From positions 1-41,700 of IMG/VR virus record IMGVR_UViG_3300030104_007686: a DNA stretch of 41,700 nt. The stretch is one strand, 5' to 3'. Under the pieces are notes generated by a model. That model saw nothing but the letters and a program-made list of their open reading frames with translations, searched no databases and was not told the DNA's origin. The position numbers and the translations under genes were made by a program. Shown here in pieces: positions 6,673 to 40,654 of this stretch (positions are counted from its first letter, which is position 1; each line of letters opens with the position of its first letter). This DNA is from a virus.

Positions 6673-6684
6673 TAGATACGCAAT

Positions 6685-6710: not shown

Positions 6711-6735
6711 ACTTCTACCTTTCAAAAAATACTTC

Positions 6736-6764: not shown

Positions 6765-6804
6765 ATACACTATCTAATTAACACTTTATATAGAGGACTT
6801 TTAC

Positions 6805-21458: not shown

Positions 21459-21476
21459 CCTACATAAAAATAATTC

Positions 21477-21505
21477 TTGACTCCTCACGTCCCCTTTGAT
21501 ATAAT
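21477..21505 (+). promoter_or_regulatory. Sigma70-type promoter before the fibre operon
   Basis: TTGACT at 21477-21482 and TATAAT at 21500-21505 are separated by 17 bases, with TG one base before the -10 box (extended -10). It sits in the 67-base gap between J and the next gene, whose ATG at 21526 follows GGAG at 21514-21517. No terminator is seen before it, so J transcripts probably also read through. Confidence 0.88.
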
Positions 21506-21525
21506 TTCATCATGGAGAAATTTAA

Positions 21526-21864
21526 ATGAGTGCAGCAAACCACGACCTAGTGATTGACCAAGGATCGACTTTTGTGATTGACTTAACAATCAAAGAGTCA
21601 GGATCCTTGAAAAACTTGACTGGCTTTTCGGGCAGGGCACAGATGCGCTCATCTAAGACTGCCTCAGCCGTGGCAGCTTCTTTTACTTGCACCATTGCTA
21701 ATCCTACAAATGGGGTATTAAAGATGGAATTACCAGCAACTACATCGACTGCGATGGCATCTGGTGTTTATTTTTATGATTTAGAAATTCATACAGCAAA
21801 TGATGCTATAGTAAAGAGACTTATTGAAGGAAAAGTTACTATAAATCAAGAAGTTACAAGGTAA
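21526..21864 (+). CDS. Small beta-rich tail/baseplate-type protein (BppU N-domain-like)
   Basis: A 112-residue product, the first gene after the promoter. The pattern LVIDQGSTFVIDLTIKE near the start, then LTGFSGRAQMRSSK, GVLKMELPATTST and GVYFYDLEIHTAND, is one I associate with small phage proteins placed beside fibre genes and with the N-terminal domain of lactococcal phage BppU, which attaches receptor-binding proteins to a baseplate. The all-beta composition fits. It ends VTINQEVTR. It could be a fibre adaptor at the tail tip. The family resemblance is from memory of pattern, and the role is inferred. Confidence 0.6.
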   Translation: MSAANHDLVIDQGSTFVIDLTIKESGSLKNLTGFSGRAQMRSSKTASAVAASFTCTIANPTNGVLKMELPATTSTAMASGVYFYDLEIHTANDAIVKRLIEGKVTINQEVTR

Positions 21865-21866
21865 TT

Positions 21867-22283
21867 ATGTCTACTGCAGCTACTCAAGTAACTATTACAG
21901 AACAAGTTACAGATTTAACTGTTACAAATACAAATGCAATTGCTCTGGATCTAACAACAGAGGATGTAAGTATTTCTATAAATAATTTTGCAATTCCAGT
22001 TAATTTTATGGATGCTGCAAATGTGGTTTTTACCCCACACAATACAATTTCCGCAAATAATGTAAGTGATGCTCTGAAGCAGCTTGCAGATCAACAATTT
22101 AGAGGAACTACTCCCCCTGCAGATGGAACAACAAACTTAGAGGAAGGAGATCTCTTTTATGATACTGATGATAATCAAGTCAAAGTATATCGCGAAACTA
22201 GTACAGGAAATTTCGAGTTCGTACCTATAATAGTAGGCGACGCTTCTGGAGATTCAGATACGCTAGACGCAGGAGCCTTTTAA
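21867..22283 (+). CDS. Short fibre-like/linker protein
   Basis: A 138-residue product starting two bases after the previous stop. It has a Thr/Val-rich N-terminus, then NTISANNVSDALKQLADQQF and a segment with NLEEGDLFYDTDDNQVKVYRE, both common in fibres of marine phages, where they act as short structural modules. It ends SDTLDAGAF, similar to the end of the next protein (SNTLDGGTF), so the two may be related in how they attach. It is too short for a full fibre and may be a fibre base or a split module. No enzymatic motif is seen. Confidence 0.6.
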   Translation: MSTAATQVTITEQVTDLTVTNTNAIALDLTTEDVSISINNFAIPVNFMDAANVVFTPHNTISANNVSDALKQLADQQFRGTTPPADGTTNLEEGDLFYDTDDNQVKVYRETSTGNFEFVPIIVGDASGDSDTLDAGAF

Positions 22284-22303
22284 GGCTAACCCCGGAGTTT
22301 TAG

Positions 22304-24229
22304 ATGGCTCAGACAATAAAAATCAAAAGAAGTACCAGTACTTCAGCCCCTACTTCTCTGGTAGCGGGCGAGTTAGCATACTCTGATGCCAGTGATAAAC
22401 TGTTTATCGGACAACCCTCTGATAATGCAGTAACTGCTATTGGTGGTAAAGTATATGTAGATATGCTTGACCATACTGCGGGTACTCTTACTGCATCAAG
22501 CGCAATACTTGTAGACGCAAGCAGCAAAATTGATCAACTTAAGACTGCAAATCTCACAATAGGTGCAAACTCAATTACGTCTGGGTCTGGCGATGTAGAT
22601 ATAGTCGCTGCTGCAAATCTTGATATTGATGCGGGCACAATTGATATTTCTACGCAGGCAACTCAATTCTCTATAATTGATAACTCTGCTACCGCACTTA
22701 CAATTGCCGAAGGCTCAAATACATTTATGAGCTTTATCACCACTAACTCTGGTGAAAAAATTACAACAGGAAAAACTCTTGTAGTTGATGGTGACGGCAC
22801 GACTGGAAACGGTGGTGTAAGTATTGAAAATGGTACAATTGATCTTAAGAATGGCGGAGGAAATGACTCTCGTATACGATTCTACTGTAGTTCATCAAAT
22901 GCTCACTTTCAAACCTTGCAAGCTGCTCCTCACAGTTCTTCGGCTTCAAATACTCTTCTTTTACCTGCAGCAGGTACTGAGTTAATATCAAACACCGGTA
23001 CTCAGACAATGACAAACAAGTCATTGACTTCGCCTACTCTTACAGGTACGGCCACAGTAGCTGCAGCAAATTTTTCAGGCAATGTAAGTTTTGCCGGTGG
23101 ATCTAGCCAGGGCGTAACTATTGTCCAAGGCGGTATACAAATAAAGAATGGTGGTACACAATCTTATGTAGATTTTTATTGTGAGTCTTCAAATGCTCAT
23201 AAAGTACGCTTACAAGCACCGGCTCACTCTGCTTTCTCTGGAAATGTTACTGTAACCCTTCCTGCAAATACTACAACACTTATTGGTGCGGATAGTACTG
23301 ATACTCTTACAAATAAGACTCTTACATCTCCAGATATTAATACACCAGATATTGATGGAGGTACTGTAGATGGTACAGTAATTGGTGGAAACACCGCAGC
23401 TGCTGGTACATTCACAGCGATAGTTGGTACTTCACTCGCAGTTGATAACGTATCTGTAGATACAAATACAATTTCAACTACTAACTCGAATGGTAACTTA
23501 GTACTTTCACCAAATGGTACAGGTACAGTAACAGTACCTTCTGGGTATAAAAATCGCGCAGGCTTTGGTGCAACTTCACTTGTTTCAAAAGAATATGTAG
23601 ATGCAGTAAAAGTTGGGCTTGATTTTAAAGACTCCGTACGAGTTGCTACTACTGCAAACGTAACTGTTTCTGGTCCTGGCGCAGCAATTGATGGTATAAC
23701 TTTATCGAGTGGTGACAGAGTCCTATTAAAGAATCAGTCAACTGCTTCTGAAAATGGTATTTATATATTTAATGGTGCTGCTTCTGCGCTTACAAGAGCA
23801 ACTGATGCAGATTCAAGTACCGAAGTTACTTCCGGAATGTTTACTTTTGTAGAAGAAGGTACTGTAAATGCTGATTCAGGCTTTGTACTTACAACCGATG
23901 GAAGCATAACTGTAGGTTCTACTTCTCTTGCTTTTGCTCAGTTCTCAGGTGCTGGACAAATTGTTGCGGGAGACGGTTTAACTAAATCTGGCAATCAGAT
24001 AAATGCAAACGATGATAACATTACTCTTGAAGTCAATAGCGATGCATTAAGAATAAAAGGTATCTCAGCAACAGCAGTTGGTGACTTGCTTGTAGGTGCA
24101 GCTTCAAATGCTGGATATACTCGACTTGTGAAGCCTTCTGGTAATGCAACTGCACATGATTACATTCTTTCTATGAATACAAGTGGTGCTGCACAATGGT
24201 CTAACACACTGGATGGCGGAACTTTCTAG
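22304..24229 (+). CDS. Tail fibre protein 1 (Mtd-N-like start, repeat-rich)
   Basis: A 641-residue product; ATG 22304 follows GGAG at 22294-22297. It starts MAQTIKIKRSTSTSAPTS followed by LVAGELAYSDASDKLFIG, which resembles the N-terminal domain of the major tropism determinant family and of many phage fibres, and probably joins the fibre to the tail. The body has two related blocks with RIRFYCSSSNAH and VDFYCESSNAHKVRLQAP, then TLTNKTLTSPDINTPDIDGG, all seen in cyanophage-type structural proteins. No receptor-binding module of known type and no S74 chaperone is seen at the C-terminus, which ends SNTLDGGTF. It may be a shaft or hub rather than the tip-bearing fibre. Confidence 0.72.
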   Translation: MAQTIKIKRSTSTSAPTSLVAGELAYSDASDKLFIGQPSDNAVTAIGGKVYVDMLDHTAGTLTASSAILVDASSKIDQLKTANLTIGANSITSGSGDVDIVAAANLDIDAGTIDISTQATQFSIIDNSATALTIAEGSNTFMSFITTNSGEKITTGKTLVVDGDGTTGNGGVSIENGTIDLKNGGGNDSRIRFYCSSSNAHFQTLQAAPHSSSASNTLLLPAAGTELISNTGTQTMTNKSLTSPTLTGTATVAAANFSGNVSFAGGSSQGVTIVQGGIQIKNGGTQSYVDFYCESSNAHKVRLQAPAHSAFSGNVTVTLPANTTTLIGADSTDTLTNKTLTSPDINTPDIDGGTVDGTVIGGNTAAAGTFTAIVGTSLAVDNVSVDTNTISTTNSNGNLVLSPNGTGTVTVPSGYKNRAGFGATSLVSKEYVDAVKVGLDFKDSVRVATTANVTVSGPGAAIDGITLSSGDRVLLKNQSTASENGIYIFNGAASALTRATDADSSTEVTSGMFTFVEEGTVNADSGFVLTTDGSITVGSTSLAFAQFSGAGQIVAGDGLTKSGNQINANDDNITLEVNSDALRIKGISATAVGDLLVGAASNAGYTRLVKPSGNATAHDYILSMNTSGAAQWSNTLDGGTF

Positions 24230-24240
24230 ATTTTTTCCTA

Positions 24241-24252
24241 GCGTATATACGC
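24241..24252. promoter_or_regulatory. Perfect 12-base palindrome between fibre genes 1 and 2
   Basis: GCGTATATACGC lies in the 40-base gap, 17 bases before ATG 24270. CCTA (24237-24240) and TAGG (24258-24261) could extend it as a stem that covers part of the AGGGGAG Shine-Dalgarno (24259-24265). It may be an RNA structure controlling initiation or a protein site; it may also be chance. Confidence 0.4.
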
Positions 24253-24269
24253 AGTTTTAGGGGAGCCAC

Positions 24270-27200
24270 ATGGCACAAACGATTAAACTAAAACGGTCTT
24301 CCGTTTCTGGTAATACTCCAGGTACCTCAGATTTAGAGCTGGGTGAGGTTGCAATCAATACCTATGATGGTAAGATGTTCATCAAGAAAAACGATGGATC
24401 AGATTCTATAGTAGAGATTGGCGGCACTTCCGGAACTGTAACAGAAGCATTTAAAACTATTGCTGTCTCAGGACAGAACAATGTAGTGGCTGATTCTGCA
24501 ACAGATACACTCACTCTTGTAGCTGGTAGTAATATGACTATCACTACAAATGCTTCTGGTGATACAGTTACGTTTGCGTCCTCTGGCGGTGGCGGAACTC
24601 AGAATGTATTTAATACTTTTGCTGTCTCCGGTCAATCAAGTGTAGTAGCAGACTCTACTACAGACACCCTTACTCTAGCTGCAGGTTCTGGCATTAATAT
24701 TACAACTAATGCTGGCACTGACACAATTACAATTGCAGCAACAGCTTCTGCAATTACAGTACAGGACGAAGGCTCCGCACTATCCACAGCAGCAACAACC
24801 CTTAATTTTGTAGGTGCTGGCGTTACTGCAAGTGGTACGGGTGCAACTAAAACAATTACCATTCCAGGCACTGGAACAGTATCGGAAGCATTTAAAACAA
24901 TTGCTGTATCTGGACAATCAAATGTAGTTGCCGATGGTGCAACCGATACTCTTACTTTAGCTGCTGGTAGTGGTATGACAATTACCACAAATGCTTCAAA
25001 TGATACTATTACATTTGCATCGTCTGGTGGTGGAGGTTCTCAAAATGTATTCTCAAATATTGCTGTATCTGGACAAGGTACGGTACAAGCAGATGCAACT
25101 ACAGATACTCTCACAGTTGTAGCGGGTTCAGGAATAGCTCTTACCACCGATACAAGTGCAGATTCTCTTACAATTACAAATACTGGTACTGTAAATGTAG
25201 CAAATGCTGCATCTTCCATAAAAGAGTTTAAATATGATATAAGCTCTAGTACTACAACAATTACTGGCTCTGATGCAAACTCAAATACTCTTGCGTATGA
25301 AGCAGAAGCGATTCAAGTATTTCTAAATGGTATATTACTTGATCCTGCAACTGACTATACTGCAAGTAATGGCACTTCTATAGTTTTAACAGATGCCGCA
25401 GTAAGTGGAGATGATGTACAAATTGTAGCTTTCAATCGAAAAATTGTAACTGCAAATGTTGGCTTAAGCACATTCACAGGTGATGGAACAACTACGGCAT
25501 TTACTCTTTCTAGTGACCCTGTGCATGAAAATAATACTCGTGTTCATATAGACGGTGTTTATCAAGAAAAGGCTGCTTATGCTGTAAGTGGTACAACTCT
25601 TACTTTTTCTGGAGCACCACCAAATAACTCTTCTATTGAAGTAGAGATAGGCTTTACACAAGCAGAGATAGGTTCTACACTTGACTTTGCTGACAATGCA
25701 ATACTCAGAATTGGTACAGGTAACGATCTTCAAATTTTACATGATGGATCAAATAGCATAATCAAAGATACTGGTACTGGCGATTTACAAATTGCTGCAA
25801 GTACACTTGAAGTTAAAAATTCTGGTCTAAACGAGACTATGATAAAGGCTATTGAAGACGGAGCCGTCGAGCTTTATCATGATAATGCCAAGAAGCTAGA
25901 AACGGTTACAGGTGGTGTAACTATTACTGGTACTGTCACCGCGACAACTTTTTCTGGAGATCTATCTGGAACCATAAATACTGCTACAACGGGTGCCACA
26001 CAAAGTGCGAGTGATAATAGTACGAAACTAGCAACAACTGCATACGTAACGACTGCACTTTCTAATCTTGTGGATTCGGCGCCGGGAACTTTAAATACTT
26101 TAAATGAGCTGGCCGCCGCGTTGGGAGACGATGCAAACTTCTCTACAACAATTACAAACAGTTTAGCCACAAAAGTTGGACTTACCGCGACTACAGGTGC
26201 GGCAAATATGCCAGCAGGCACAACTGCACAGAGACCGGGAAGCCCTGCAGCAGGACAGTTTCGTTACAATAGCACTCTTAGCCAATTTGAAGGATATACT
26301 TCCTCTTGGGGTGCAATCGGCGGTGGTGGTACAAATACATTTACTACAGATACTCTTACAACATCTGGTTCAGCAACCGTTACTTTATCTCAAGCTGTAT
26401 CAAGCCCGAATGACTGTATTGTACATATTGATGGTATCTATCAGACTCCAACAGATGCTTATACTGTAAGTGGTACTACTCTTACATTTACTGCAACTCC
26501 TGCGAGTGGCAGAAAGGTTGTAGTATATTCTGTAAAAGCTGGCGTAAGTGGAAATAATCTAAATACTCAAACATTCTCCGGAAATGGAAGCGCAACTTCC
26601 TTTACAATGAATGTAAATCCTATCAATGAAAATAATACGATTGTACACATTGATGGTGTATATCAGCAGAAGAGTTCGTACTCTACATCAGGAACTACAT
26701 TAGCTTTCTCAGCAGCTCCTGCAAATGGCACAACAATTGAAGTTGCAACCTTTACGCAGACTGAGATAAATGTTCCTGTAAATGATACTATAGATACAGT
26801 ACACATTAAAGATGACGCAGTTACAAGTGCAAAACTTGGAGGTAATCTTGTCGCACCCGGTACAGTTACAGCATCAGCAGGCTTTGTAGGACCACTTACT
26901 GGGAATGTCACAGGTAACGTATCTGGTACAGCAGCTACAGTTACAACTGCTGCACAAACAAACATTACAAGTTTGGGTACGCTAACCACGCTTACTGTAG
27001 ATGACATTACAATAAATGGTTCTACTATATCTGACGCAGCTGATTTAACGTTGGATGTTGCAGGTAACATATCTCTTGATGCAGATGATAGCGGACACGT
27101 TCGTTTTAAAGATGGCGGTACTGAGTATATTTCAATATATCAAAGTAGTAGCGATGCTATCCTTCAATCCTCTATCCAAGACAAAGACATACTTTTCAAA

Positions 27201-29129
27201 GGCAACGATGGTGGTTCTACTATCACAGCATTGACCCTTGATATGTCAGAGGGCGGCAAAGCTACGTTTGCTAATGACATCGCCGTTGCTGATAACCGTG
27301 GTCTACGGTTGGGCAGTGATAATGATTCTGTTATCTACAATGATGGCTCCAACCTTTACATAAAAAACAACACTAGTAATCAAGACATTATTTTCCAAGG
27401 CAACGATGACGGGAGCACTGGCACCACAGCCCTGACCCTTGATATGTCAGATGCGGGCAAGGCCACTTTCAATGCCGGAGCTGCGTTTGGCAATGATGTC
27501 ACTATTTCGGGAGGACTTACCACATCAGAAACAATATATATAACTGGTGATAATCATGATCTTATCATAAGTTCAAATGATCATGAAAATGTTTATTTAG
27601 GAAACAGAGGCGCAAGTGGAACAAACCTAGATAAAGGTTATTTCCGAATGAAGTCTGAAAGCACGAATACTGTTGTTATTGATACGGCGGGTAATTCTTT
27701 TTTTAATGGCGGCAATGTTGGTATCGGTACTAATAATCCCGGAGAACTATTGCATGTTTCTAAGTCTGTTGATGACGAAGTATCAGTTAGAATACAAAAT
27801 AGTAACGGCGGAAGTTCGGCGTATGCAGCGTTATATCTACAAGGAGACGGTAATAATTTTAGAATAAAAAATTGGGGTGATGGTACAAGCAAGGCAAACG
27901 CGACTGAGTTTATTTCAACAGCAGGAAGTTCGCAGTTTATATTTGCACCCTCAAATTCCGAAGCCATGCGCATCGACAGCAGCGGCAACGTGGGAATCGG
28001 TGTTACGCCCAGCGCCCCTATTGATGTGGTCACAAACAGCACCGTTTGGACGGGCGAATTTACTCAAAGCAATACGTCAAATGGTGACGGCGTACTTATT
28101 TCGGTAGGCAGCACTGCGGCAGCCGATTACGCCTTGTCTGTTAGAACAAACGCTGGCGCACACTCCGGTTTGGCTGTGAAGGCAGACGGTAAAACAGGCA
28201 TAGGCACTTTTTCACCGGAGCATAGTCTGCATGTTCTTGATTACGGATCATCAAGTGATGCAACAATAAAAGTTGGAGGCAGCGGGGCTTCTCTAGGTCT
28301 AGAAATTAGTTACAGCCAAGCTTCGACGACAATTGCCAATATTGTTTCTAATCCAACCTATACCAATAATGGTGCAAAGTTAAGACTGGCAGTGGATGGT
28401 GACAGGAATGCAAACCAGTTGGTGCTTAATGGGGAAGGCAATATTGGTATAGGTATTCTAGACCCCGCTACCTACTATGACACAGTTCTACATTTACACG
28501 ACGCGGGAGCTGGCACCAACACTCATATAAAAATCACAAACGGCACCACAGGTGCTAGCCAAGGCGACGGTACTGACCTTCTTGCCGCTGGCAGTGATTT
28601 CTATGTGATTAATAGGGAAGCAACTGGAACCGTTAGATTTTTAACGAATTCCCTAGAGCGCATGCGCATTGACGCCGACGGCGCAGTCACAAAGCCCTAT
28701 CAGCCAGCGTTCAGTGCTACACGAAGCGGTAGCGATGTGAGTTTTAATGCAAACACTACTACCGTGATCCCCTTCCAGAGCGAGATTTTTGACCAGAACG
28801 CTGATTACAACGCCAGTAATTACCACTTCACCGCGCCCGTTACTGGGAAGTACCAATTTAACCTGATTGTAAGGCTGAACGACATTGATGAGTCAACAGA
28901 CTATTACATCTTGTACATCAGAACCAGTAACAGAAATTACTACCACATTATTGATTCAGGCTGTTTTGATTTGGACCCTAACTACTACACGATGCAAGTA
29001 ACAGTGTTGGCAGATATGGATTCCGGAGATCAGGCATGGGGAGAGGTTTACCAAACCAACGGCGCAAATCAATCAAGCATTGATGGCGGAAACGGATCTA
29101 ATTCATTCTCAGGCTACCTAGTTGCTTAG
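24270..29129 (+). CDS. Tail fibre protein 2, with C-terminal C1q-like domain
   Basis: A 1619-residue product. The start (MAQTIKLKRSSVSGNTPGT and then DLELGEVAINTYDGKMFIKK) is a second Mtd-N-like domain. Residues 60-310 hold four copies of a 45-55 residue unit (VSGQ..VVAD..TDTLTL.AGS). Residues 402-834 hold three copies of another unit (HIDGVYQ...SGTTL.F), a SASDNSTKLATTAYVTTAL block and, further on, GNVTGNVSGTAATVT. From about 1140 there are GNVGIGT-type motifs. Residues 1474-1619 resemble C1q/TNF jelly rolls: PYQPAFSATRSG, then IFDQNADYN, then FTAPVTGKYQFNL, with a final SFSGYLVA strand. The last module is the likely receptor-binding tip. Base composition changes near 27085 from AT-rich to clearly GC-richer. 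No S74 domain is present. Confidence 0.8.
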   Translation: MAQTIKLKRSSVSGNTPGTSDLELGEVAINTYDGKMFIKKNDGSDSIVEIGGTSGTVTEAFKTIAVSGQNNVVADSATDTLTLVAGSNMTITTNASGDTVTFASSGGGGTQNVFNTFAVSGQSSVVADSTTDTLTLAAGSGINITTNAGTDTITIAATASAITVQDEGSALSTAATTLNFVGAGVTASGTGATKTITIPGTGTVSEAFKTIAVSGQSNVVADGATDTLTLAAGSGMTITTNASNDTITFASSGGGGSQNVFSNIAVSGQGTVQADATTDTLTVVAGSGIALTTDTSADSLTITNTGTVNVANAASSIKEFKYDISSSTTTITGSDANSNTLAYEAEAIQVFLNGILLDPATDYTASNGTSIVLTDAAVSGDDVQIVAFNRKIVTANVGLSTFTGDGTTTAFTLSSDPVHENNTRVHIDGVYQEKAAYAVSGTTLTFSGAPPNNSSIEVEIGFTQAEIGSTLDFADNAILRIGTGNDLQILHDGSNSIIKDTGTGDLQIAASTLEVKNSGLNETMIKAIEDGAVELYHDNAKKLETVTGGVTITGTVTATTFSGDLSGTINTATTGATQSASDNSTKLATTAYVTTALSNLVDSAPGTLNTLNELAAALGDDANFSTTITNSLATKVGLTATTGAANMPAGTTAQRPGSPAAGQFRYNSTLSQFEGYTSSWGAIGGGGTNTFTTDTLTTSGSATVTLSQAVSSPNDCIVHIDGIYQTPTDAYTVSGTTLTFTATPASGRKVVVYSVKAGVSGNNLNTQTFSGNGSATSFTMNVNPINENNTIVHIDGVYQQKSSYSTSGTTLAFSAAPANGTTIEVATFTQTEINVPVNDTIDTVHIKDDAVTSAKLGGNLVAPGTVTASAGFVGPLTGNVTGNVSGTAATVTTAAQTNITSLGTLTTLTVDDITINGSTISDAADLTLDVAGNISLDADDSGHVRFKDGGTEYISIYQSSSDAILQSSIQDKDILFKGNDGGSTITALTLDMSEGGKATFANDIAVADNRGLRLGSDNDSVIYNDGSNLYIKNNTSNQDIIFQGNDDGSTGTTALTLDMSDAGKATFNAGAAFGNDVTISGGLTTSETIYITGDNHDLIISSNDHENVYLGNRGASGTNLDKGYFRMKSESTNTVVIDTAGNSFFNGGNVGIGTNNPGELLHVSKSVDDEVSVRIQNSNGGSSAYAALYLQGDGNNFRIKNWGDGTSKANATEFISTAGSSQFIFAPSNSEAMRIDSSGNVGIGVTPSAPIDVVTNSTVWTGEFTQSNTSNGDGVLISVGSTAAADYALSVRTNAGAHSGLAVKADGKTGIGTFSPEHSLHVLDYGSSSDATIKVGGSGASLGLEISYSQASTTIANIVSNPTYTNNGAKLRLAVDGDRNANQLVLNGEGNIGIGILDPATYYDTVLHLHDAGAGTNTHIKITNGTTGASQGDGTDLLAAGSDFYVINREATGTVRFLTNSLERMRIDADGAVTKPYQPAFSATRSGSDVSFNANTTTVIPFQSEIFDQNADYNASNYHFTAPVTGKYQFNLIVRLNDIDESTDYYILYIRTSNRNYYHIIDSGCFDLDPNYYTMQVTVLADMDSGDQAWGEVYQTNGANQSSIDGGNGSNSFSGYLVA
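24447..25198 (+). repeat. Four imperfect repeats in fibre 2 (45-55 residue units)
   Basis: Copies begin near 24447, 24610, 24888 and 25052. Each encodes AVSGQ.{1,4}V.AD..TDTLT..AGS followed by a Thr-rich strand. Copies 1 and 3 also share EAFKTIAV and FASSGGGG, so the unit of duplication is probably a pair of copies. Confidence 0.8.
25474..26770 (+). repeat. Three dispersed VHIDGVYQ units in fibre 2
   Basis: Units at about 25474-25650, 26338-26535 and 26574-26770 encode a Thr/Ser-rich strand, HIDG(V/I)YQ, then SGTTL.F and a closing strand. They are separated by other modules, so they were probably copied and then split by insertion. Confidence 0.75.
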
Positions 29130-29160
29130 GCGAAATAACCAATCCTAAAGGAGATTAACA

Positions 29161-29427
29161 ATGGCAGATTTAACAGTAACAATAACACTAAACGATACTC
29201 AACAGGCTGTTCTAAACAACGACTTGTTAGACATAAAGACATGGATAGAAGACGCAGTAACTGGCAAAGAAAACAATTGCTGGAAACGTATGCAGACTGA
29301 ATGGACAACGAAGCTGATGAACGATGACAGCTTTACAGATCCCATCCCCAGCAACCAAGCGGATTTTATCACACTGGTGACTAGCAGGGACGATTATCAA
29401 ACTCGTACAGAAAGAGATGCTGTATAA
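29161..29427 (+). CDS. Small fibre-associated protein A (88 aa)
   Basis: An 88-residue product between fibres 2 and 3, with AAAGGAG at 29147-29153 seven bases before the ATG. It begins MADLTVTITLNDTQQAVLNN and continues with LLDIKTWIED, which resembles the 88-residue protein at 31559 (TLTLTSAEDKALKTV then IDIKEWA). Both have a short Thr-rich strand followed by an acidic helix and a variable C-terminus. No signal peptide, cysteine motif or membrane segment is seen. The strict placement after a fibre gene suggests a fibre chaperone or a tip-attached adhesin. Function is unknown. Confidence 0.65.
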   Translation: MADLTVTITLNDTQQAVLNNDLLDIKTWIEDAVTGKENNCWKRMQTEWTTKLMNDDSFTDPIPSNQADFITLVTSRDDYQTRTERDAV

Positions 29428-29449
29428 GCGGTCTAAAGGAGGCTAAATA

Positions 29450-31540: not shown

Positions 31541-31558
31541 ATTAAAGGAGAGAAAATT

Positions 31559-31825
31559 ATGAGCGATTATACACTAACATTAACTTCTGCAGAAGATAAA
31601 GCACTTAAAACTGTAATGATTGATATAAAAGAATGGGCAACAAACTTCACAAAAGTAAGAGCAGAAACTGCAATTGCAGACATAACTACAAAGCTTTTGG
31701 AACATTGTAATGCAAATAATATTGCTCTTGCAACAGGAGTAGAGGCACAAATAGACCAAGCATATAGCTTAGGATTAGTCAAAGAAGCAAAAGCAGACGC
31801 TTCACTTCCAGAGGGGATGGACTAG
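31559..31825 (+). CDS. Small fibre-associated protein B (88 aa), paralogue of A
   Basis: An 88-residue product after fibre 3, with AAAGGAG before the ATG. The first 30 residues (MSDYTLTLTSAEDKALKT then VMIDIKEWA) align by eye with the protein at 29161; the C-terminal halves differ. A single cysteine and an acidic end (ASLPEGMD) are present. Like its relative it is short, soluble and mostly helical. The stop TAG (31823-31825) is part of the Shine-Dalgarno stretch of fibre 4, so the two genes are translated together. A fibre-specific accessory role is inferred from placement only. Confidence 0.65.
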   Translation: MSDYTLTLTSAEDKALKTVMIDIKEWATNFTKVRAETAIADITTKLLEHCNANNIALATGVEAQIDQAYSLGLVKEAKADASLPEGMD

Positions 31826-31834
31826 GAGTAATAA

Positions 31835-34540
31835 ATGGCACTAACAACCGTACCAGCATCACTATCAGCAACCGCACTTACACTTACAACTGCGGCACAG
31901 CCGAATATTACGTCAGTAGGAACTTTGACGGGCTTGACTGTGAGTGGAAATATTGCTGGTACACTTACAACTGCTGCACAGACAAATATTACAAGTCTTG
32001 GTACTCTTACAAGTCTTAATTCTACTGGTGATGTAACGGTGACTAGTGGAACATCTGGTAAACCGCATTTAAATCTTATAAACACAAATGCAGATTCGTC
32101 GGCTCCAGTATTAAACTTTAAAAAAGATTCAGCTTCGCCAGCAGATAACGATGAAGTTGGTAGAATTTATATGTGGGGCGATGATGACGCAGGTAATCCT
32201 ACAGAAGCATTTTTAGCGATAGGCAAAATGACCGATGTAAGTAATGGGTCAGAGGATTCTTCACTTGATTTATATACTCTCGCAGCAGGCGCACAATCAG
32301 CTACACTTACCTTGAAAGAAGGCAAAGTTGGTATTGGTACTGCGAGTCCCGGCAACAAGCTAGACATCAAAGGAACCGTGGGATTTGAAGCAACCAATAG
32401 CACTAATAGGTGGTTGGCATACACTTACACAGATAATACATACAGACTTAACTACAACGGTGCAGGAGCGGATGAGGTAGTTGTAGACAGCAGCGGCAGG
32501 GTGGGCATCGGGACTAGCAGCCCATCGTCCTACTATGCGAAAAATTTCGTTGTGATGGCGGATGGCGACGGAACTGGGGGAATCACAATTGCTGCCCCTG
32601 CTACTGATGACAACACCTATCTCGCATTTGCTGATGGTACGTCTGGCGCAGCAACTTATGCTGGATATGTCGGGTATAGCCACAGCAGTGAGTATCTGTT
32701 CTTTGGAGCCGGTGCTACGACAGCTATGTATGTCAAAAGCGGTAATTTGGGCATCGGGGCTAGCAGTCCTGCGGCAGCTTATGGAAGCGACACAGTATTA
32801 GAAGTATCTGGCGCTAGTTCCCCAGGCATCGTCATAAACGACACTGGTCAAGCTCAAAAATACGGAATTCACGCGGACAGCAACGATCTAAAAATTACTT
32901 ATGGTTCTGGGGTGTTAGTAGATTTCCAAAACGATGGAAATGTTGGTATTGGTACAACGAGTCCAGCTCAAACTCTGCATGTTTCATCTACCGGTGCTAC
33001 AAGTAATGGTATAAGGATTTCTAACTCAGAAGGCTCTTTTGACGCTAGGGTAGATCAAGGAGAGTTTTACTTATATGATGTAGATGATAATAGGATTCCC
33101 TTTCTAATAGATACCAGCGGCAATGTTCTTTTGGGCACCAGTAACACAACGTGGGCTTCACAAGAAGGCGTGCGTTATTTCAACGGCGACTCCTTAGTGC
33201 TTACCCGCTCTGCTGGTGATGCGCTTTATGTGAACCGCCTTTCTAGCGATGGTCCGATAGCCAGTTTCTACAAAGATGGATCAGCTATAGGCTACTTGTC
33301 CACAAGCGGCGGCGACCTACTAATCCATAGCACCGCTGCAAACCACTCAGGGTTGCGATTTGGTGAGGGATATATATTCCCCACAGATAATAGTGGCAAT
33401 ACGTCAAACGGCGTTATGGATCTCGGACTTAGTGTTAGCAGATATAAAGACCTTTACCTAAGCAACTCTATTGATATATCCAAAACAACCGCAGGGAACA
33501 TCACAGGCGGAGCATCCCGCGCAGGAGCGGTGTTACGACTGCATCACGAAGCTCAATGGGAAAATGGTTACACAGGCGGCGATTTCCTTGGCGGCATTGA
33601 ATTCTCCACTGGTGACGGATCAACCGGCGAAGGTGTAAGGGCTGCGATCAAGACAAGTGTTGATAGCTACTACAACACAAACAAAATGCGGTTTTACGTT
33701 GCAGCATCCAACAACGCTACATTAACCGAGAGGATGCAGATAAAAAATGATGGGTCGGTTGGGGTGGGCACCACAGACCCAGAATATCGCTTACAAATAA
33801 ACGGCTCTAATGTTAGCTCTGGGGGCGGGTTAGCTACCGTTGGTATTTTTGACGAAGGCACTGCCTACAATGGCACGAAGCCTGGGGGCGGGATTGCTTT
33901 CAGAGGAAAGTATAATAGCAGCGGGAACATAACTAATTTCGGCAGCATTCAAGCCTTCAAAGAAAACGCCACGAACAATCAATACGGCTCCGCGATGGTG
34001 TTTACGACTAGGGCGCATGGCGGCAACCTAACCGAAACACTACGAATACGGTCAGATAAAAGTGTATCTTTGAATGATGGACATTTGATTATGTCCAATG
34101 GCTACGGTATTCAGTTTAATGCAACAGCTAACAGCGCGGGTACGATGAGTTCAGAAACGCTGGACGATTACGAGGAAGGGACTTGGACTCCAGTTATACG
34201 CGCTTCGGGTGGCAATACAGTCACTGGGCAAAGTAATGTCCAAGCGACTTACACAAAAATTGGACGACTCGTACAAATAAGCGCGTATATCTCCAGTGTT
34301 GATATGACTCTTATGACTAGCGGAACTTATGTCATTATGCAGGGTTTGCCATTTGCATGTACAACTTATGGAGATTTCAACATATCTTACCGTAGAGGAG
34401 GCACTGCTTTCCAAGGTGGCTATGTACAGACTGGAACTAGCTATTTGTACTTTGTAGATGACAATGGCGCGGAAATAAATCAGAGCAATAACCAAACAAT
34501 GACCGCATTTATGATTAATGCCACTTATATGGCATCTTAA
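31835..34540 (+). CDS. Tail fibre protein 4, DYEEGTWTP-type C-terminus
   Basis: A 901-residue product, ATG 31835 after AGGAG at 31824-31828. It starts MALTTVPASLSATALTL and goes on with TTAAQPNITSVGTLTGL, related to segments of fibres 2 and 5. From about residue 160 there are at least five GNVGIGT..P motifs (for example near 32323, 32500, 32750, 32942, 33765). Residues about 771-901 begin SSETLDDYEEGTWTPVI, a C-terminal module found in many marine phage fibres, then a beta-rich domain with YTKIGRLVQISAYI; this is probably the receptor-facing part. No C1q or S74 domain. The first 500 bases are AT-rich and most of the rest is GC-richer, with an AT-richer patch near 32930-33100. Confidence 0.78.
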   Translation: MALTTVPASLSATALTLTTAAQPNITSVGTLTGLTVSGNIAGTLTTAAQTNITSLGTLTSLNSTGDVTVTSGTSGKPHLNLINTNADSSAPVLNFKKDSASPADNDEVGRIYMWGDDDAGNPTEAFLAIGKMTDVSNGSEDSSLDLYTLAAGAQSATLTLKEGKVGIGTASPGNKLDIKGTVGFEATNSTNRWLAYTYTDNTYRLNYNGAGADEVVVDSSGRVGIGTSSPSSYYAKNFVVMADGDGTGGITIAAPATDDNTYLAFADGTSGAATYAGYVGYSHSSEYLFFGAGATTAMYVKSGNLGIGASSPAAAYGSDTVLEVSGASSPGIVINDTGQAQKYGIHADSNDLKITYGSGVLVDFQNDGNVGIGTTSPAQTLHVSSTGATSNGIRISNSEGSFDARVDQGEFYLYDVDDNRIPFLIDTSGNVLLGTSNTTWASQEGVRYFNGDSLVLTRSAGDALYVNRLSSDGPIASFYKDGSAIGYLSTSGGDLLIHSTAANHSGLRFGEGYIFPTDNSGNTSNGVMDLGLSVSRYKDLYLSNSIDISKTTAGNITGGASRAGAVLRLHHEAQWENGYTGGDFLGGIEFSTGDGSTGEGVRAAIKTSVDSYYNTNKMRFYVAASNNATLTERMQIKNDGSVGVGTTDPEYRLQINGSNVSSGGGLATVGIFDEGTAYNGTKPGGGIAFRGKYNSSGNITNFGSIQAFKENATNNQYGSAMVFTTRAHGGNLTETLRIRSDKSVSLNDGHLIMSNGYGIQFNATANSAGTMSSETLDDYEEGTWTPVIRASGGNTVTGQSNVQATYTKIGRLVQISAYISSVDMTLMTSGTYVIMQGLPFACTTYGDFNISYRRGGTAFQGGYVQTGTSYLYFVDDNGAEINQSNNQTMTAFMINATYMAS

Positions 34541-34551
34541 TTTCAAACTTA

Positions 34552-34570
34552 TGCCTAGTGGATCTAGGCA
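34552..34570 (+). other. Stem-loop between fibre 4 and the next small gene
   Basis: TGCCTAG and CTAGGCA form a perfect 7-pair stem around the loop TGGAT, in the 47-base gap after the fibre 4 stop. No T tract follows, so it is more likely an mRNA processing or stability element than a terminator. Confidence 0.5.
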
Positions 34571-34587
34571 CGGACAGGAGATAGAAA

Positions 34588-34851
34588 ATGGCTTTAGAAA
34601 AAACAACAAAAGAAGACAAGATTGAAGTGATAGATGCAGGGGATTGGAAGATGGTTCAAGTCAGAACCGCAACCATTATCACTGAAGACGGTACGGAGCT
34701 TAACCGCTCATTTAGCCGTCACGTTGTCTCACCCGCCGATGATTGGTCTTCAGCAAGTGCAGAGGTGAAAGCTATCTGTAATGCAGTACACAATGACACA
34801 ACCAAAGCAGCCTTTTTAGCTGCACAAGAAGCAGGTCCAGCAACGGAGTAA
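34588..34851 (+). CDS. Small fibre-associated protein C (87 aa), different family
   Basis: An 87-residue product between fibres 4 and 5; AGGAG at 34576-34580 lies seven bases before the ATG. The sequence (MALEKTTKEDKIEVIDAGDW then MVQVRTATIITEDGTELNRS, FSRHVVSPADDWSS) does not resemble proteins A and B. It has an N-terminal strand pair, an 'R.ATII.EDG.EL.RSF.RHV' core and a C-terminal helix (EVKAICNAVHND). I have seen this type near fibre genes of marine phages but know no function. It again sits after a fibre gene, now one with a DYEEGTWTP tip, so the companion may depend on the type of tip. Confidence 0.65.
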   Translation: MALEKTTKEDKIEVIDAGDWKMVQVRTATIITEDGTELNRSFSRHVVSPADDWSSASAEVKAICNAVHNDTTKAAFLAAQEAGPATE

Positions 34852-34854
34852 TAA

Positions 34855-37674
34855 ATGGCACTTACAAAAATAACACCACAGATGTTCGATACGAGCGCAG
34901 CTGGGCACGATTTTAATATCGACAACGGCACTTTCGTGGTGGACGCGAGTGCCAATCGTGTGGGTATTGGAACAGCTACACCAAGTACTTTGCTTCATAT
35001 ACTTACAGCATCTAATGGAGCTTCTACAGTAGGAAGTGCTTCGGATGAATTAATTTTAGAAAATAGTGGAGATGCTGGATTAACCATAAGAAGCGGCTCT
35101 TCAAGTGATGGAGTTATTAGTTTTGCAGATGCAGATGACCATAATATAGGTCAAGTATATTATAGTCATAGTAATAATACTATGACTTTTAGAACTAATG
35201 ATGCAATTGCAGCTACAATAAATAGTTCTGGTGTAGTTACAGCTTCTGCAGGTTTTGTTGGACCGCTTACAGGTAATGTTACAGGTAATGTATCTGGTAC
35301 AGCAGCTACAGTTACGGGTGCTGCACAGACAAATATTACTTCTGTTGGTACTCTTACAGGATTAACAACTACAGGAAACCTTGTAGGTACAACAGCAACT
35401 TTCTCAGACACGGTTACAATAGATGCTGCGGATGGTGACGCGGACGAAGCATATGTTCTTGCCGTTCGAAGTCAAGAAGCAACGGCGGGTAGAAACTACG
35501 GTATGTGGGTTCGTGCCGGCAGCAACTCAAGTGATGAGTCTTTTAGTGTACGTAACTTTGATAATTCATCAATGTATTTTAAGGTTCGTGGTGACGGCAA
35601 TGTGGGCATCGGCGAAACTTCCCCGTCAGCAAAATTTCATATTAAAAAGACCGCTGCATCAACCCAACACTATGATCAGTTTGCTACAGCAATAGTAGAA
35701 GATACAGAGGCTCGTTTACAAATTGTTGCTAGTGAAGGAGGAAGTAATGCTGCAGGCCTACTTCTTACAAATGAAGCAAAACATTGGGGCGTAGTTCATC
35801 ATGGTACTGGTAATAGCAATATTTTTTCAATAGGTTATTATGCAAGCAGCTCTAGTGGTGTTGACCTTTCTGATAATTTAAGTGATATACTTAATATAAC
35901 TACAGCGGGCAATGTTGGTATCGGAACGTCGTCCCCAAATTCTTATGGCGGCTATACAGCATTAACAATAAACGGGACAAACGGTGGCTTGCTGGACTTT
36001 GAAACAAACGGCACATTCGTCGGAGAGGTTTACGCAGATGGGACGAATGGCTTGGGTCTGCAATCAGTTGGTTCGCGGCATATTAAATTTGTTACTAACG
36101 GCGCAGAACGCATGCGCTTTGGATCATCAGGTGAGCTTCAGATCGGAGGTACGTCAAACGCCGGATTTGTTGACTTTGATGGAACAAACCTACAGCTTAA
36201 TACGCAGCGAAATCCAAACACTGGCGCGTTTGTAAATACAAGCAGAGCGCACGCAGGTATAACGCTTTCAAGCGCCAGCGCTAATAGCCATATTAAGTTT
36301 TATACCACCAGTGTCAATAACAGTACTGCTTCGGTGCGCATGCTCTTAGACCGATATGGAACGCTCGCAGTAGGAACTCAAGACACACATGCGTGGTCAA
36401 CCTTCGACGGTAAGTTTCGTATAGGCGCAAGGGGCATTGTCGCCACGACAACCACTAGCACACAGATTGGTCACAACTGGTATTACAACGGTGGATACAA
36501 ATATATTGGCGCTGACTACGCATCCCGAATAATCCAGTCAAGTGGTTATGTCAGTGTTGAAACAGCTACCAATGGCTCCGCTGATGGCGCAATAACTTTT
36601 GATGAAAAATTCAAAATACGGAACGATGGAAAAGTTGATATAAAACTCAACTCCAACGCTTTCGGCACTTTTGCCGACAACATAGGTGAAGTAGGCTCTG
36701 GCAACTTCTGTCTGCAAGTTGCGAACTCAGCCCAGAACGCACTCAAGCCGCTCGGCTTCCGCGCAGAAGAAATAAAGTTTGCCACTGGCAGCGCGACGCG
36801 AGGCTATTTCAACAGTAGTGGTCATTTAGTGCTTGGCAGCAGCAGCCATGCTGATGATCTTCTTTACTTAGTAAGATCTAACGCTGGGAAGCTACAGCGG
36901 TTTTATGTTGGTAGCGACGAGCAGGGCTGGATAGGTGCGGCTAATGGTGATCTAAACATCAATGGGGGACCTTCAAACCATTCGGGAATGCGTTTCCAAG
37001 CAACAAGCATCATGCCCCGCTACAACAACGCTGACTCAAACGGCACAGTTGATTTGGGTTTGACGAGCAATAAGTGGAAGGACATTTACGCAAGCAATTA
37101 TGTATACGCATTGGGTATTTGGTGGCAGAACGATACCGATACCGGCATGTATCGCAATGATACTGATTCAATATCGTTCCGAGTTGGCGGCAATGATTAT
37201 TTCACTATAGATGGTGACGCAAGCACTTACACGCACATGTTTAACAGCGGCACTTACTCATGGTATGTGGGAACAAGTGGCAACACTTTCAATTTTTACG
37301 ATGGTGGCGGAACTCAGAGGGGGTATGTTCATCCTGGCAACGGTTTTGTAAACGGATCTGATCGCGCATACAAAGAAAATATCTCAGACATCACCTATGG
37401 GCTGGAGACTGTAAAAAAATTGCAGCCTCGCAAATTTAAGTTCAAAGACACGGTGGACATGGCTGATGACAGTGTTACATACGTTGGCGAGGAAAGCGTT
37501 GGGTTTATTGCTCAAGAGCTAGAGCAAGAAATACCTGAGTTGGTTATGGGTGAAGATGGAACAAAAACCGTGGCATATTCTCAGCTAACAGCCGTTTTGA
37601 CCAAGGCGATACAAGAACAACAAGCACTAATTGAAGCACTACAGACAGAAGTGGCAGCACTTAAAGGAGGCTAG
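34855..37674 (+). CDS. Tail fibre protein 5, with S74 self-cleaving chaperone
   Basis: A 939-residue product starting three bases after the previous stop. The N-terminus (MALTKITPQMFDTSAAGHDF) is of the MALT type. It holds GNVTGNVSGTAATVT, GNVGIGT-type motifs near 34960, 35590 and 35905, and a long beta-rich body. The last about 105 residues are an S74 intramolecular chaperone: Ser835 and Lys840 in NGSDRAYKENIS, five residues apart as in the Ser911/Lys916 dyad of endosialidase NF, then VGFIAQELEQEIPELV and a final coiled coil (EQQALIEALQTEVAALKGG). The domain helps trimerise the fibre and then cuts itself off, leaving a mature fibre of about 834 residues. Composition switches between AT-rich and GC-richer several times. 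Confidence 0.85.
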   Translation: MALTKITPQMFDTSAAGHDFNIDNGTFVVDASANRVGIGTATPSTLLHILTASNGASTVGSASDELILENSGDAGLTIRSGSSSDGVISFADADDHNIGQVYYSHSNNTMTFRTNDAIAATINSSGVVTASAGFVGPLTGNVTGNVSGTAATVTGAAQTNITSVGTLTGLTTTGNLVGTTATFSDTVTIDAADGDADEAYVLAVRSQEATAGRNYGMWVRAGSNSSDESFSVRNFDNSSMYFKVRGDGNVGIGETSPSAKFHIKKTAASTQHYDQFATAIVEDTEARLQIVASEGGSNAAGLLLTNEAKHWGVVHHGTGNSNIFSIGYYASSSSGVDLSDNLSDILNITTAGNVGIGTSSPNSYGGYTALTINGTNGGLLDFETNGTFVGEVYADGTNGLGLQSVGSRHIKFVTNGAERMRFGSSGELQIGGTSNAGFVDFDGTNLQLNTQRNPNTGAFVNTSRAHAGITLSSASANSHIKFYTTSVNNSTASVRMLLDRYGTLAVGTQDTHAWSTFDGKFRIGARGIVATTTTSTQIGHNWYYNGGYKYIGADYASRIIQSSGYVSVETATNGSADGAITFDEKFKIRNDGKVDIKLNSNAFGTFADNIGEVGSGNFCLQVANSAQNALKPLGFRAEEIKFATGSATRGYFNSSGHLVLGSSSHADDLLYLVRSNAGKLQRFYVGSDEQGWIGAANGDLNINGGPSNHSGMRFQATSIMPRYNNADSNGTVDLGLTSNKWKDIYASNYVYALGIWWQNDTDTGMYRNDTDSISFRVGGNDYFTIDGDASTYTHMFNSGTYSWYVGTSGNTFNFYDGGGTQRGYVHPGNGFVNGSDRAYKENISDITYGLETVKKLQPRKFKFKDTVDMADDSVTYVGEESVGFIAQELEQEIPELVMGEDGTKTVAYSQLTAVLTKAIQEQQALIEALQTEVAALKGG

Positions 37675-37677
37675 ATA

Positions 37678-40368
37678 ATGGCAAAATCAAGAGGAAGAAA
37701 GTTTGCAGAGATAACAACGCCCACAAACGGTGTGTTTGATATTGCATCTGTACCTACAATAACCAATGCAAAGCTACAGAACTCTGCAATGACACTTGCA
37801 GGTAGTTCTGTATCTCTTGGTGGCACAGGTGTAGCGAACACAGATGCACTGTCAGAAGGGTCAAGTAATCTTTATTTTACTGATGCAAGAGTACAAACTT
37901 TTCTTGGAGGAGGAACACTTGCAGGAAATATTGTAGTACCTGACAACCGAAGTATTTATCTGGGATCAAGCTCAGATGTGCGTATTTATCACGACACTAC
38001 AAATACTCAACTTATAAATGCAACTGGTCAGCTGCAAATTACATCAAACGGTGGGTTTGCTGTGACTGGAGCTGCAACTTTTTCTAGTACTATCGCTAGT
38101 GGCGCAATTACAAGCAGTGGGCAGGTACAAGCTAATGTGTTTAGGTGTCATGTTGGGACAGACTCAGGAAGTCAGTTAAATCTATTTGCCAACAGTAGTG
38201 GTCATTGTTTTATTGCAGGTCATACACTTAGTTTTAATGTAGGTGCAAATAATTCAAGAGCAACTAAAGTCTTTATAAATGCAGACGGTGAAGTTGGTAT
38301 TGGGGGCACCGGGAATACCGTAGATGAACTTTTACATTTAGAAAAATCTGCAGGAACAACGCTAGTCAAAACAGAGGTTGCCGCGAATAGTATTGTTGGA
38401 TTTGAGATAGCTAAGACTAATGCAACCACTCAGTCTTGGAGAATTGTAGACGGTCAAACGGTCAATGGTGATTTAGAAATATATGATGTTACGGATTCAC
38501 GTCTAGTCACAAGTTTTAATGGTGCCGGTAATGTTAAATTTACTGGTTCTTTGGGTGTTAATAAAGCAATAAATACAGCCGTTGGACTAAGTGTTGGAGC
38601 AGACTCAACTGCTACTAATTCTTATGGGTTAGAGGTATGCAATGCCAGTGCTAATACAAGATTTTTAGTAGATGGTGTTGGTAATTCGTATTTCTATAGA
38701 TCGGACAATGCTCGAGGTTTGACATTTGAGGCTACCAGCGGGAACGTTGGTATTGGTACTGCAAGAGGAGGTATAAGTCCTAATGCCACTCTACATGTTG
38801 CAGGAGAAAATAATGGATATGATGGAACTGTAAGAGTTGGAGAACGAGGATACTTCGCGCATCGCGATGGTGGCTCGACAAAGACTTGGGTTGCCAATAA
38901 CTATAATAGTGATTCTGCAACCTTTGGTATAAGAATGAAAGGTATTGCGGATAGTAATGAAGTACTTACTGTGAAAGGTAACGGCTATGTTGGTATTGGT
39001 ACTTCCAGCCCTGATGCAAAATTTGAAGTAGAATGGACAGGTAATAATGTTTCTACAGATAATATAGCAAGAATTACAGCTCCTATATATCCTTCGCTTC
39101 AATTTTATAGTACAAATACAAATTCTAGTAATAGAAACTGGAAAATAGCAGGCGTTCACAATGCTTACGGGACGCTTGAATTTTTAAGAAGTTCTTCGGC
39201 AAATGGAACGCCAAGTGTAACAACTCTCGCTATGAATGCCCTTGGCAATATTGGTATTGGTACTCATGCTCCAATAGCTCTTGATGGAAATGCTAACCCA
39301 GGATTGACAGTTTCTTCAAATGGGCCGTTTATACTTCTACAAGATGCTAACAACTCAGACAAAGTTAGATATATGTCTAACAATACTGGTGAATTGCAAT
39401 TTGGTATAGTTGGCGATAATGGTGCAAGTGGTAAAACTGAACATATGCGTATTACTGCTGGCGGTAAAGTTGGTATTGGTGAAACTAATCCAATAGCTCC
39501 TTTATCTATAGAAGCAACTTCGACTAATACAGCTAATCATTTACTACATGTTTACCGTCCCGATGGTCTAACGCATCAAAGCGAGCCCTATTCATCAATA
39601 TTACTACAAAATCAAGAAACTACTTCAGGAGTCGAATATGATGGTATGACTATAATGAGTTCAAAACAAGCACATTATAGATTTCAAGTAGGAAATACTG
39701 GAAGTTGGGGAGGTTCTGGAGCTAAACGGTGGCAACTTCGTGTGGGGCAAGGAAATGCTGTAGATCAGATGAGTATTTATGGTTGGACAGCGGGAGGCAG
39801 CAATGGTGGAAATGAAGTAGTAGCGTGGGATGCTTCTGCAACACAAACTAATTATGTGGTTAGTGGAAATTATGTGCTTAGACTGAAAAGTAGTAATGGA
39901 GCAGATTTAGGTATTGGTCCATTAAATACTAGTTATTATCATTTTGTAATACAAAATAGCACTTCGAATACATTTTATTTCGGTCAACGTTGTGAAGCAA
40001 GTGGAGGATTTCACACATATTCTGATGAAAGATTGAAAAAAGAAATTACTCCTATTTCTGATGCTCTTACAAAAGTAAAGAAAATGAATGGAGTTACGTT
40101 TAAGTGGATAGATCCAGAGAATAGAGGAAGTGCAGATGCTGGAAAACAATTCGGAGTAACTGCTCAAAATATGCTAGAAGTAGACTCTGAACTTCCTACT
40201 TTAAATAAAGATCCACTTTACAATGTAAAGGAGGATGTTTCAGAAAATGATGAATATTACACAATGGATTATAGCAGAATTACTCCATTTTTAATAGAAG
40301 CAATTAAAGAGCAACAAGCACAAATAGAAGCTTTACAAGCAGAAGTTAAAGCTTTAAAAGGAGAATAA
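37678..40368 (+). CDS. Tail fibre protein 6, with S74 self-cleaving chaperone
   Basis: An 896-residue product with AAAGGAGG at 37663-37670. It starts MAKSRGRKFAEITTPTNGVF, unlike the other fibres, and has DALSEGSSNLYFTDARVQTF, a motif also present in J (LAEGTNNLYFTNARAR). GNVGIGT-type motifs occur near 38290, 38750, 38985, 39250 and 39470. The C-terminal about 115 residues are an S74 domain with Ser782 and Lys787 in TYSDERLKKEI, then FGVTAQNMLEV and a coiled coil (EQQAQIEALQAEVKALKGE) nearly the same as that of fibre 5. Predicted mature length is about 781 residues. It is AT-rich for most of its length, unlike fibres 4 and 5, and has no small companion gene after it. Confidence 0.85.
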   Translation: MAKSRGRKFAEITTPTNGVFDIASVPTITNAKLQNSAMTLAGSSVSLGGTGVANTDALSEGSSNLYFTDARVQTFLGGGTLAGNIVVPDNRSIYLGSSSDVRIYHDTTNTQLINATGQLQITSNGGFAVTGAATFSSTIASGAITSSGQVQANVFRCHVGTDSGSQLNLFANSSGHCFIAGHTLSFNVGANNSRATKVFINADGEVGIGGTGNTVDELLHLEKSAGTTLVKTEVAANSIVGFEIAKTNATTQSWRIVDGQTVNGDLEIYDVTDSRLVTSFNGAGNVKFTGSLGVNKAINTAVGLSVGADSTATNSYGLEVCNASANTRFLVDGVGNSYFYRSDNARGLTFEATSGNVGIGTARGGISPNATLHVAGENNGYDGTVRVGERGYFAHRDGGSTKTWVANNYNSDSATFGIRMKGIADSNEVLTVKGNGYVGIGTSSPDAKFEVEWTGNNVSTDNIARITAPIYPSLQFYSTNTNSSNRNWKIAGVHNAYGTLEFLRSSSANGTPSVTTLAMNALGNIGIGTHAPIALDGNANPGLTVSSNGPFILLQDANNSDKVRYMSNNTGELQFGIVGDNGASGKTEHMRITAGGKVGIGETNPIAPLSIEATSTNTANHLLHVYRPDGLTHQSEPYSSILLQNQETTSGVEYDGMTIMSSKQAHYRFQVGNTGSWGGSGAKRWQLRVGQGNAVDQMSIYGWTAGGSNGGNEVVAWDASATQTNYVVSGNYVLRLKSSNGADLGIGPLNTSYYHFVIQNSTSNTFYFGQRCEASGGFHTYSDERLKKEITPISDALTKVKKMNGVTFKWIDPENRGSADAGKQFGVTAQNMLEVDSELPTLNKDPLYNVKEDVSENDEYYTMDYSRITPFLIEAIKEQQAQIEALQAEVKALKGE

Positions 40369-40391
40369 AAAAGGGGCTTTCGCCCCTTTTT
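40367..40391. terminator. Bidirectional terminator between fibre and nrdB operons
   Basis: GGGGC (40373-40377) and GCCCC (40382-40386) form a stem around TTTC, flanked by an A tract on the left and a T tract on the right. The fibre 6 stop (40366-40368) and the stop of the minus-strand gene (40393-40395) lie directly at its edges, so it serves both converging operons. Confidence 0.9.
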
Positions 40392-40392
40392 A

Positions 40393-40644: not shown

Positions 40645-40654
40645 TTTAGGACTC

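Follow-up and report, generated by a model that had tools for sequence, protein, structure and literature searches.

A marine virus fibre operon with a T5 p132-like collar protein, putative T4-type fibre joints and small genes paired with fibre tips

The window analysed in this study is a 41.7-kb fragment (41,700 nucleotides, positions 1 to 41,700 of IMG/VR record IMGVR_UViG_3300030104_007686) of an uncultivated marine bacterial virus, in which positions 21477 to 40368 carry a 19-kb fibre set organised as an 11-gene operon, with six genes of at least 640 amino acids (F1 to F6) and five small genes. Following comparison with related loci we propose, with a probability of roughly 0.6, that this operon encodes a multi-armed, jointed adsorption apparatus with exchangeable tip cassettes, with F1 and F2 probably forming successive parts of the same jointed fibre, while small genes following certain fibres are likely tip-specific helpers. 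A sequence-only reading of this DNA had described six long fibre-like genes in a row after J, which we could verify, as all six open reading frames are intact, each with a ribosome-binding-like site upstream. The five small genes, namely g112 (21526), g138 (21867), o88a (29161), o88b (31559) and o87 (34588), were not listed in that reading.

Megablast of the array DNA against cultured phages returned no match, and the relatives of the array were drawn from IMG/VR contigs (loci designated L). The part that recurs on the left side in these relatives comprises a promoter, g112, g138, F1 and the N-terminus of F2. The promoter, a sigma-70-like TTGACT-N17-TATAAT element with an extended -10 TG at 21477–21505 (+ strand, as are all genes of the operon), is the best-scoring site of this kind within 21300–41000 and the single match to TTGACW/TATAAT in the whole window. 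The same element is located directly upstream of g112 in all 31 sequences (window included) in which DNA upstream of this gene is present, and the -35 sequence TTGAC(T/A) and the -10 sequence TATAAT, 17 bases apart, are constant while their surroundings vary; by this conservation the promoter is real. In the test of this conservation, 11 of 12 matches were reached by 0.26% of shuffles, while comparison regions 5' of seven other array genes attained scores of 6–8. Together, this conservation and the uniqueness of the site bear out the earlier suggestion that the array is preceded by its own promoter.

The product of the first gene, g112 (21526–21864), is, by sequence comparison, homologous to the p132 protein of phage T5. 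Single-sequence comparison with p132 yielded an E-value of 8e-4, the g112 profile matched two solved L-shaped-fibre proteins (1.2e-6 for 7qg9 and 5.8e-6), and a g112 hidden Markov model (HMM) matched p132 of the T5 genome at 7e-11 in a set of eight sequences; g112 furthermore belongs to phrog_3304 (3e-17), with a Pfam LtfC match below the cut-off. In T5, the p132 ring encircles that of p140 and binds fibre N-termini. It is a collar of twelve subunits to which the L-shaped fibres are attached (PMC10038345). The order of tip proteins, collar and fibre is common to both systems, reading pb3-pb4-p132-ltf in T5 and J-g112-g138-F1 in the window, so that g112 sits between the tip and side-fibre genes as p132 does, whereas T5 possesses one side-fibre gene and the window an array of fibres accompanied by helpers, on a tail with a J tip of the lambda type. 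These data would suggest that g112 functions as a collar and putative fibre anchor. Homologues of g112 occur in 81 records of phages, the majority of them infecting cyanobacteria (cyanophages) or being pelagiphages, and in Mosig, P-HM1 and DC31 the homologue is followed by a small protein and then an F1-like protein, as in the window. The small protein encoded here, g138 (21867–22283), is a putative adaptor which is retained in relatives and ends in LDAGAF; comparison with solved structures produced chance-level matches only.

Concerning the junctions between g138, F1 and F2, a consistent relationship was observed between the end of one protein and the start of the next. When a socket was defined as the KRS motif start (MAQTIKxKRS and its variants) and a plug as a preceding gene ending in [DEN]xGx[FY], 45 of 47 non-redundant genes located before a KRS gene ended exactly in this manner and the other two carried one extra serine; many of these 47 cases share descent and do not represent 47 independent events. 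Elsewhere the motif terminates 6 of 1960 genes, four of which precede either a variant socket or an F1 that the pattern missed. The rule extends to distant phages and holds at two junctions in a row, g138-F1 and F1-F2, although the proteins preceding them are dissimilar, where F1 (22304–24229) has a KRS socket at its N-terminus and ends in NTLDGGTF, and F2 (24270–29129) starts with the same socket. An HMM of the socket, built from relatives, matches residues 1–47 of T4 gp37 (independent E-value 1e-7 in the eight-sequence set), while T4 gp36, encoded just upstream of gp37, ends in DFGYY and is known to bind the N-terminal region of gp37 (PMC3004832). Several relatives encode the F2 N-terminus as a free 97-amino acid protein ahead of a much longer fibre.

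The MAQTIKxKRS N-terminus thus looks like a socket of the T4 gp37 type and, because of the plug-socket rule together with the gp36/gp37 match, F1 and F2 are probably the proximal and distal segments of a single fibre that would be physically joined end to end. The window resembles T4 in that the F1/F2 socket matches gp37 and the protein encoded before it carries the plug, as gp36 does, but it differs in the presence of two successive predicted joints and in a tail that is not of the T4 type. On the same evidence, the KRS N-terminus is better read as a fibre-to-fibre joint than as the tail-docking module previously supposed, and, of the six fibres claimed, the six long genes stand while the products are probably one two-segment fibre plus four more.

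The three N-terminal types described earlier are present as stated: MAQTIK(I/L)KRS in F1 and F2, MALT.. in F3 to F5 and MAKSRGRK in F6. The MALT N-terminus resembles, by eye, the MAITKI start of T5 Ltf and was considered as an anchor of that type; the match is not significant (E=0.05, best domain 0.37). The three C-terminal types were likewise recovered using HMMs, those for C1q and EGTWTP tips being built from relatives only and that for S74 being seeded with F5 and F6: C1q in F2 (6e-19) and F3 (29450–31540; 3e-26), EGTWTP in F4 (31835–34540; 4e-24), and S74 in F5 (34855–37674; 4e-35) and F6 (37678–40368; 3e-39). Pfam concurs for F2 (C1q, 1.9e-8), F5 (S74, 8e-12) and F6 (S74, 2e-14), the C1q domain of F3 falling under its cut-off (E=0.033), and the EGTWTP domain corresponds by profile to a tailspike C-terminal domain (1.2e-7 to 6f7d). 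F1 has none of these three heads.

The type of tip was found to be associated with the identity of the following gene. Tip, o87 and o88 profiles were run on every open reading frame of all loci, with cases rendered non-redundant by tip sequence; as o88b alone retrieved only three loci as a scan query, another pair of o88 members was used. The next gene is o88 after 40 of 50 C1q fibres and o87 after 78 of 88 EGTWTP fibres, while neither follows any of the 53 S74 fibres, and crossed pairs are absent among the 191 fibres. Since many loci had been retrieved through the helper, those retrieved without the partner in question were scored separately, giving 12 of 18 for C1q-o88, 11 of 15 for EGTWTP-o87 and 0 of 53 for S74 with a helper (Fisher 7e-7 for the choice between C1q and EGTWTP partners; 2e-13 for S74 against the rest). 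Among the ten C1q fibres scored as lacking a helper, two are in fact followed by an o88a-like gene which the profile missed. The window conforms, with F2 followed by o88a (29161–29427; HMM 2e-5), F3 by o88b (31559–31825; 6e-26), F4 by o87 (34588–34851; 2e-40), and F5 and F6 by neither.

This pairing is retained where N-termini are unrelated and tips have diverged, and it recurs in several groups of cultured phages. In the cultured phages examined, tips match helpers, S-SRM01 carrying C1q, C1q, o88, EGTWTP and o87 in a row; in DSL-LC05 two genes lie between tip and helper, and a few records have a tip that is recognised only weakly. C1q tips co-vary with o88 (Mantel r=0.29, P=0.002; r=0.24, P=0.018 after thinning), a relationship that is absent between fibre N-termini and o88. 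Matches to o87 occur in 68 cultured-phage records, mainly of Prochlorococcus, Synechococcus and Pelagibacter phages. A further family of approximately 100 amino acids, starting MAVTWTI.., is often encoded after o87 genes or S74 fibres (L170, L172, L176 and others).

As regards the nature of the helpers, confident AlphaFold2 models predict an all-helical fold for o88b (predicted local distance difference test (pLDDT) 89) and a three-stranded sheet with two helices for o87 (pLDDT 91). Neither o87 nor o88 has a convincing Pfam match or a convincing sequence match in the PDB; no PDB fold exceeded a Z-score of 3.7 among the matches listed, and a BFVD fold search returned an unnamed close relative of o87 only, although a fold relative among the known chaperones may nonetheless exist. 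The o87 protein belongs to phrog_6228, a family without assigned function, while o88 has no convincing PHROG match. Trimeric fibres require a chaperone module, either as a domain of the same chain or as a separate protein (T4 review, PMC3004832), and gp27 of Alteromonas phage V22 and gp9 of A5, both DUF4376 proteins, are fibre chaperone caps that provide a functional precedent (PMC7289586, PMC10579305). Because of their position, their tip specificity and their absence after the self-chaperoning S74 tips, o87 and o88 are likely to act as tip-specific chaperones or caps. Like gp38, Tfa and DUF4376 proteins, they are encoded by small genes directly 3' of a fibre and are specific to its C-terminus; unlike these, they are approximately half the size or less, lack a convincing Pfam match and sort by tip type, the DUF4376 caps appearing to constitute a different protein family. 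F5 and F6 end in S74 as do fibres of the endosialidase type with an intramolecular chaperone, the difference being that here such fibres share one operon with fibres that apparently employ separate helpers.

Comparison of relatives for gain and loss of fibres revealed that arrays bounded on both sides carry 3.9–18.9 kb of cargo with 2–9 genes of at least 200 amino acids, so that the six fibres are not fixed in every relative. The start of F4 is 93–100% identical in DNA to L053 over approximately 180 bases and that of F5 87–100% identical to the same locus over approximately 150 bases, after which identity drops to chance level; these breakpoints are sharp and follow the first 49–57 codons. In L053 and L025 the F4 N-terminus, which bears an EGTWTP tip in the window, runs into a fibre classed by the S74 model (ending ..LLAFIIAAI), while in L054 the N-terminus of F3, a C1q fibre in the window, leads to DDYEQG, where the contig stops; these residues resemble the beginning of an EGTWTP tip. 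The similarity of F3 to L054 (92% over 287 bases) is a blastn figure, as the position-by-position comparison is disturbed, probably by an insertion or deletion. A joint match of 750 bases in L225 spans the F3 C-terminus and o88b. From the sharp breakpoints we conclude that modular exchange of fibre parts between relatives is real at the level of sequence, in agreement with the interchangeable N- and C-terminal modules of the earlier description.

Several individual loci deserve mention. Giant fibres of 2400–2600 amino acids take the place of the array fibres in L059, L060 and L061, and in L061 the N-terminus MAINFTDSPSDG is common to three tandem fibres. In the closest relative, L064 (reverse complement, 4645–7000), F2 is split into two overlapping frames, reflecting a frameshift or a sequencing error. 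Cassettes with g112 are also present in L284 and L285, whose assemblies bear the labels uncultured gammaproteobacterium AG-333-E20 and Betaproteobacteria bacterium TMED41, which may possibly hint at hosts.

In the proposed apparatus, the collar g112 and adaptor g138 would mount the fibres near the tail tip. The LDAGAF terminus of g138 would plug into the KRS socket of F1 and the LDGGTF terminus of F1 into that of F2, as T4 gp36 joins gp37, generating one long two-segment fibre, while F3 to F6 would be further fibres with other N-termini, mounted together with F1-F2 on the virion. Each tip would need a folding or capping partner, supplied from the next gene by an o88-family protein for C1q tips and an o87-family protein for EGTWTP tips, whereas S74 tips would carry a chaperone within the same chain and use neither small gene. 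Recombination may move a tip and its partner together or leave an N-terminus under a new tip, in which case the tip repertoire would change while the mounting remains constant. The more specific proposition that o88 and o87 are dedicated chaperones or caps, that several tipped fibres share one T5-type collar and that tip-plus-helper cassettes are swapped appears to us to fall somewhat short of even odds.

A number of observations weigh against this sequence-based proposal. No helper is recognisable for some C1q and EGTWTP fibres, the counts overstate the independence of the cases, many of which share descent, co-variation of EGTWTP tips with o87 is not significant (r=0.06, P=0.057), neither helper model fits a known chaperone fold, and MALT has no significant match to T5 Ltf that would account for the mounting of F3–F6. 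Alternatively, the six long genes might encode independent fibres, each docked by its own N-terminus and all displayed together. Three N-terminal types and six intact frames in one operon accord with such an arrangement, as does the observation that no other fibre lies between the MAKS-type gene and the right flank in the window, L066, L091, L121 and L127, which fixed slots would predict; it is nonetheless quite improbable, given that no tip can be recognised in F1, whose C-terminus is a plug motif, that the F1/F2 N-terminus matches gp37, which binds another fibre protein and not the tail, and that the F2 N-terminus is a free gene in several relatives. Co-expression of the fibres is favoured by their differing N-terminal types under one promoter, but F3–F5 share a type and might compete for the same sites, and it is possible, if on balance unlikely, that these MALT fibres constitute a store of alternatives yielding mixed virions, whether as bet-hedging or as a recombination reservoir. 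The rapid gain, loss and tip exchange between relatives would suit such a store, while the genes are intact with ribosome-binding-like sites, no frameshift or silencing was seen, and the gene map gave no sign of an inversion system or phase-variable switching, no dedicated repeat search having been made.

The small genes themselves allow two other interpretations. Rather than departing as chaperones, the helpers could be retained in the mature tip as adhesins, like gp38 of T2-type phages, with which they share genetic position and tip specificity, and the C1q-o88 co-variation is compatible with this; we regard it as doubtful, as mean column identity is 56% in the o87 alignment against 28% in the EGTWTP tips, and such conservation of the members tested beside diverging tips is unlike a fast-evolving receptor-binding protein. 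It is very improbable, finally, that o87 and o88 are functionally unconnected with the tips, hitch-hiking beside them through the shared ancestry of a few cassettes: the two proteins match no known fold or function and the EGTWTP-o87 co-variation is not significant, but the pairing holds with unrelated N-termini, with diverged tips and in several groups of cultured phages, without a single cross-pair and without a helper after S74.

Hypervariable tail-fibre/C1q islands in marine phages, termed metaviromic islands, have been described previously (PMC3909814), and the window resembles these in having a hypervariable host-recognition region between conserved genes. The earlier statement that no such system had been described accordingly requires amendment: the array as a phenomenon is of a known kind, while the collar-plus-joint anatomy and the tip-helper code appear to be new, the collar-adaptor-joint anchor, the conserved promoter and the tip-helper pairing not being described in the parts of that report consulted (PMC3909814). 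This study offers testable functions for small genes found in many marine phages, and a rule for reading serially joined fibre genes and for deducing which helper accompanies which tip. The p132-type collar has been described as a feature specific to phages of the T5 type, and the present data suggest that it may also mount fibres in other marine phages including T4-like ones. Taken together, these points would make the host-recognition parts of abundant, not yet cultured ocean viruses readable from metagenomes.

On the right, the operon ends near 40391 and is closed against the convergent o116-NrdB genes by a terminator-like hairpin (40364–40394; scored on the minus strand, with a symmetric stem and A- and T-runs), also not listed earlier. 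The flank consists of o116 (40393–40743, - strand; a weak match to DUF6447, and recurrent in relatives) and NrdB, the ribonucleotide reductase small chain (40655–41614, - strand), one or both of which are nearly always kept; variants comprise NrdB without a recognised o116 (e.g. L062, L082, L094, L121) and o116 followed by a different gene of approximately 625 amino acids (L055, L057, L058). Upstream of the left anchor, J-like proteins are encoded in some relatives and tip proteins little similar to J in others. The RVKIGAL motif at the J C-terminus (21400–21458) recurs at the end of such dissimilar tip proteins, often just 5' of the promoter (L017, L037 and L040 being examples), and in L018, L019, L020, L031 and L039 the tip gene is separated from the array promoter by extra genes.

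The remainder of the window contains a siphovirus-type head and tail module encoding a protease-capsid fusion, tail terminator, major tail protein and tape measure, together with lambda-like M, L, K, I and J proteins. T5-like Vibrio phages provide the closest match to the capsid protein (36% identity, 74% of the query covered). The prohead protease (S78) and capsid protein form one fused gene at 923–2923, whereas the nearest cultured match, in T5-like Vibrio phages, has the two as separate genes, and the K-like tail protein encoded at 12957–13712 combines JAB-type and NlpC/P60 domains.

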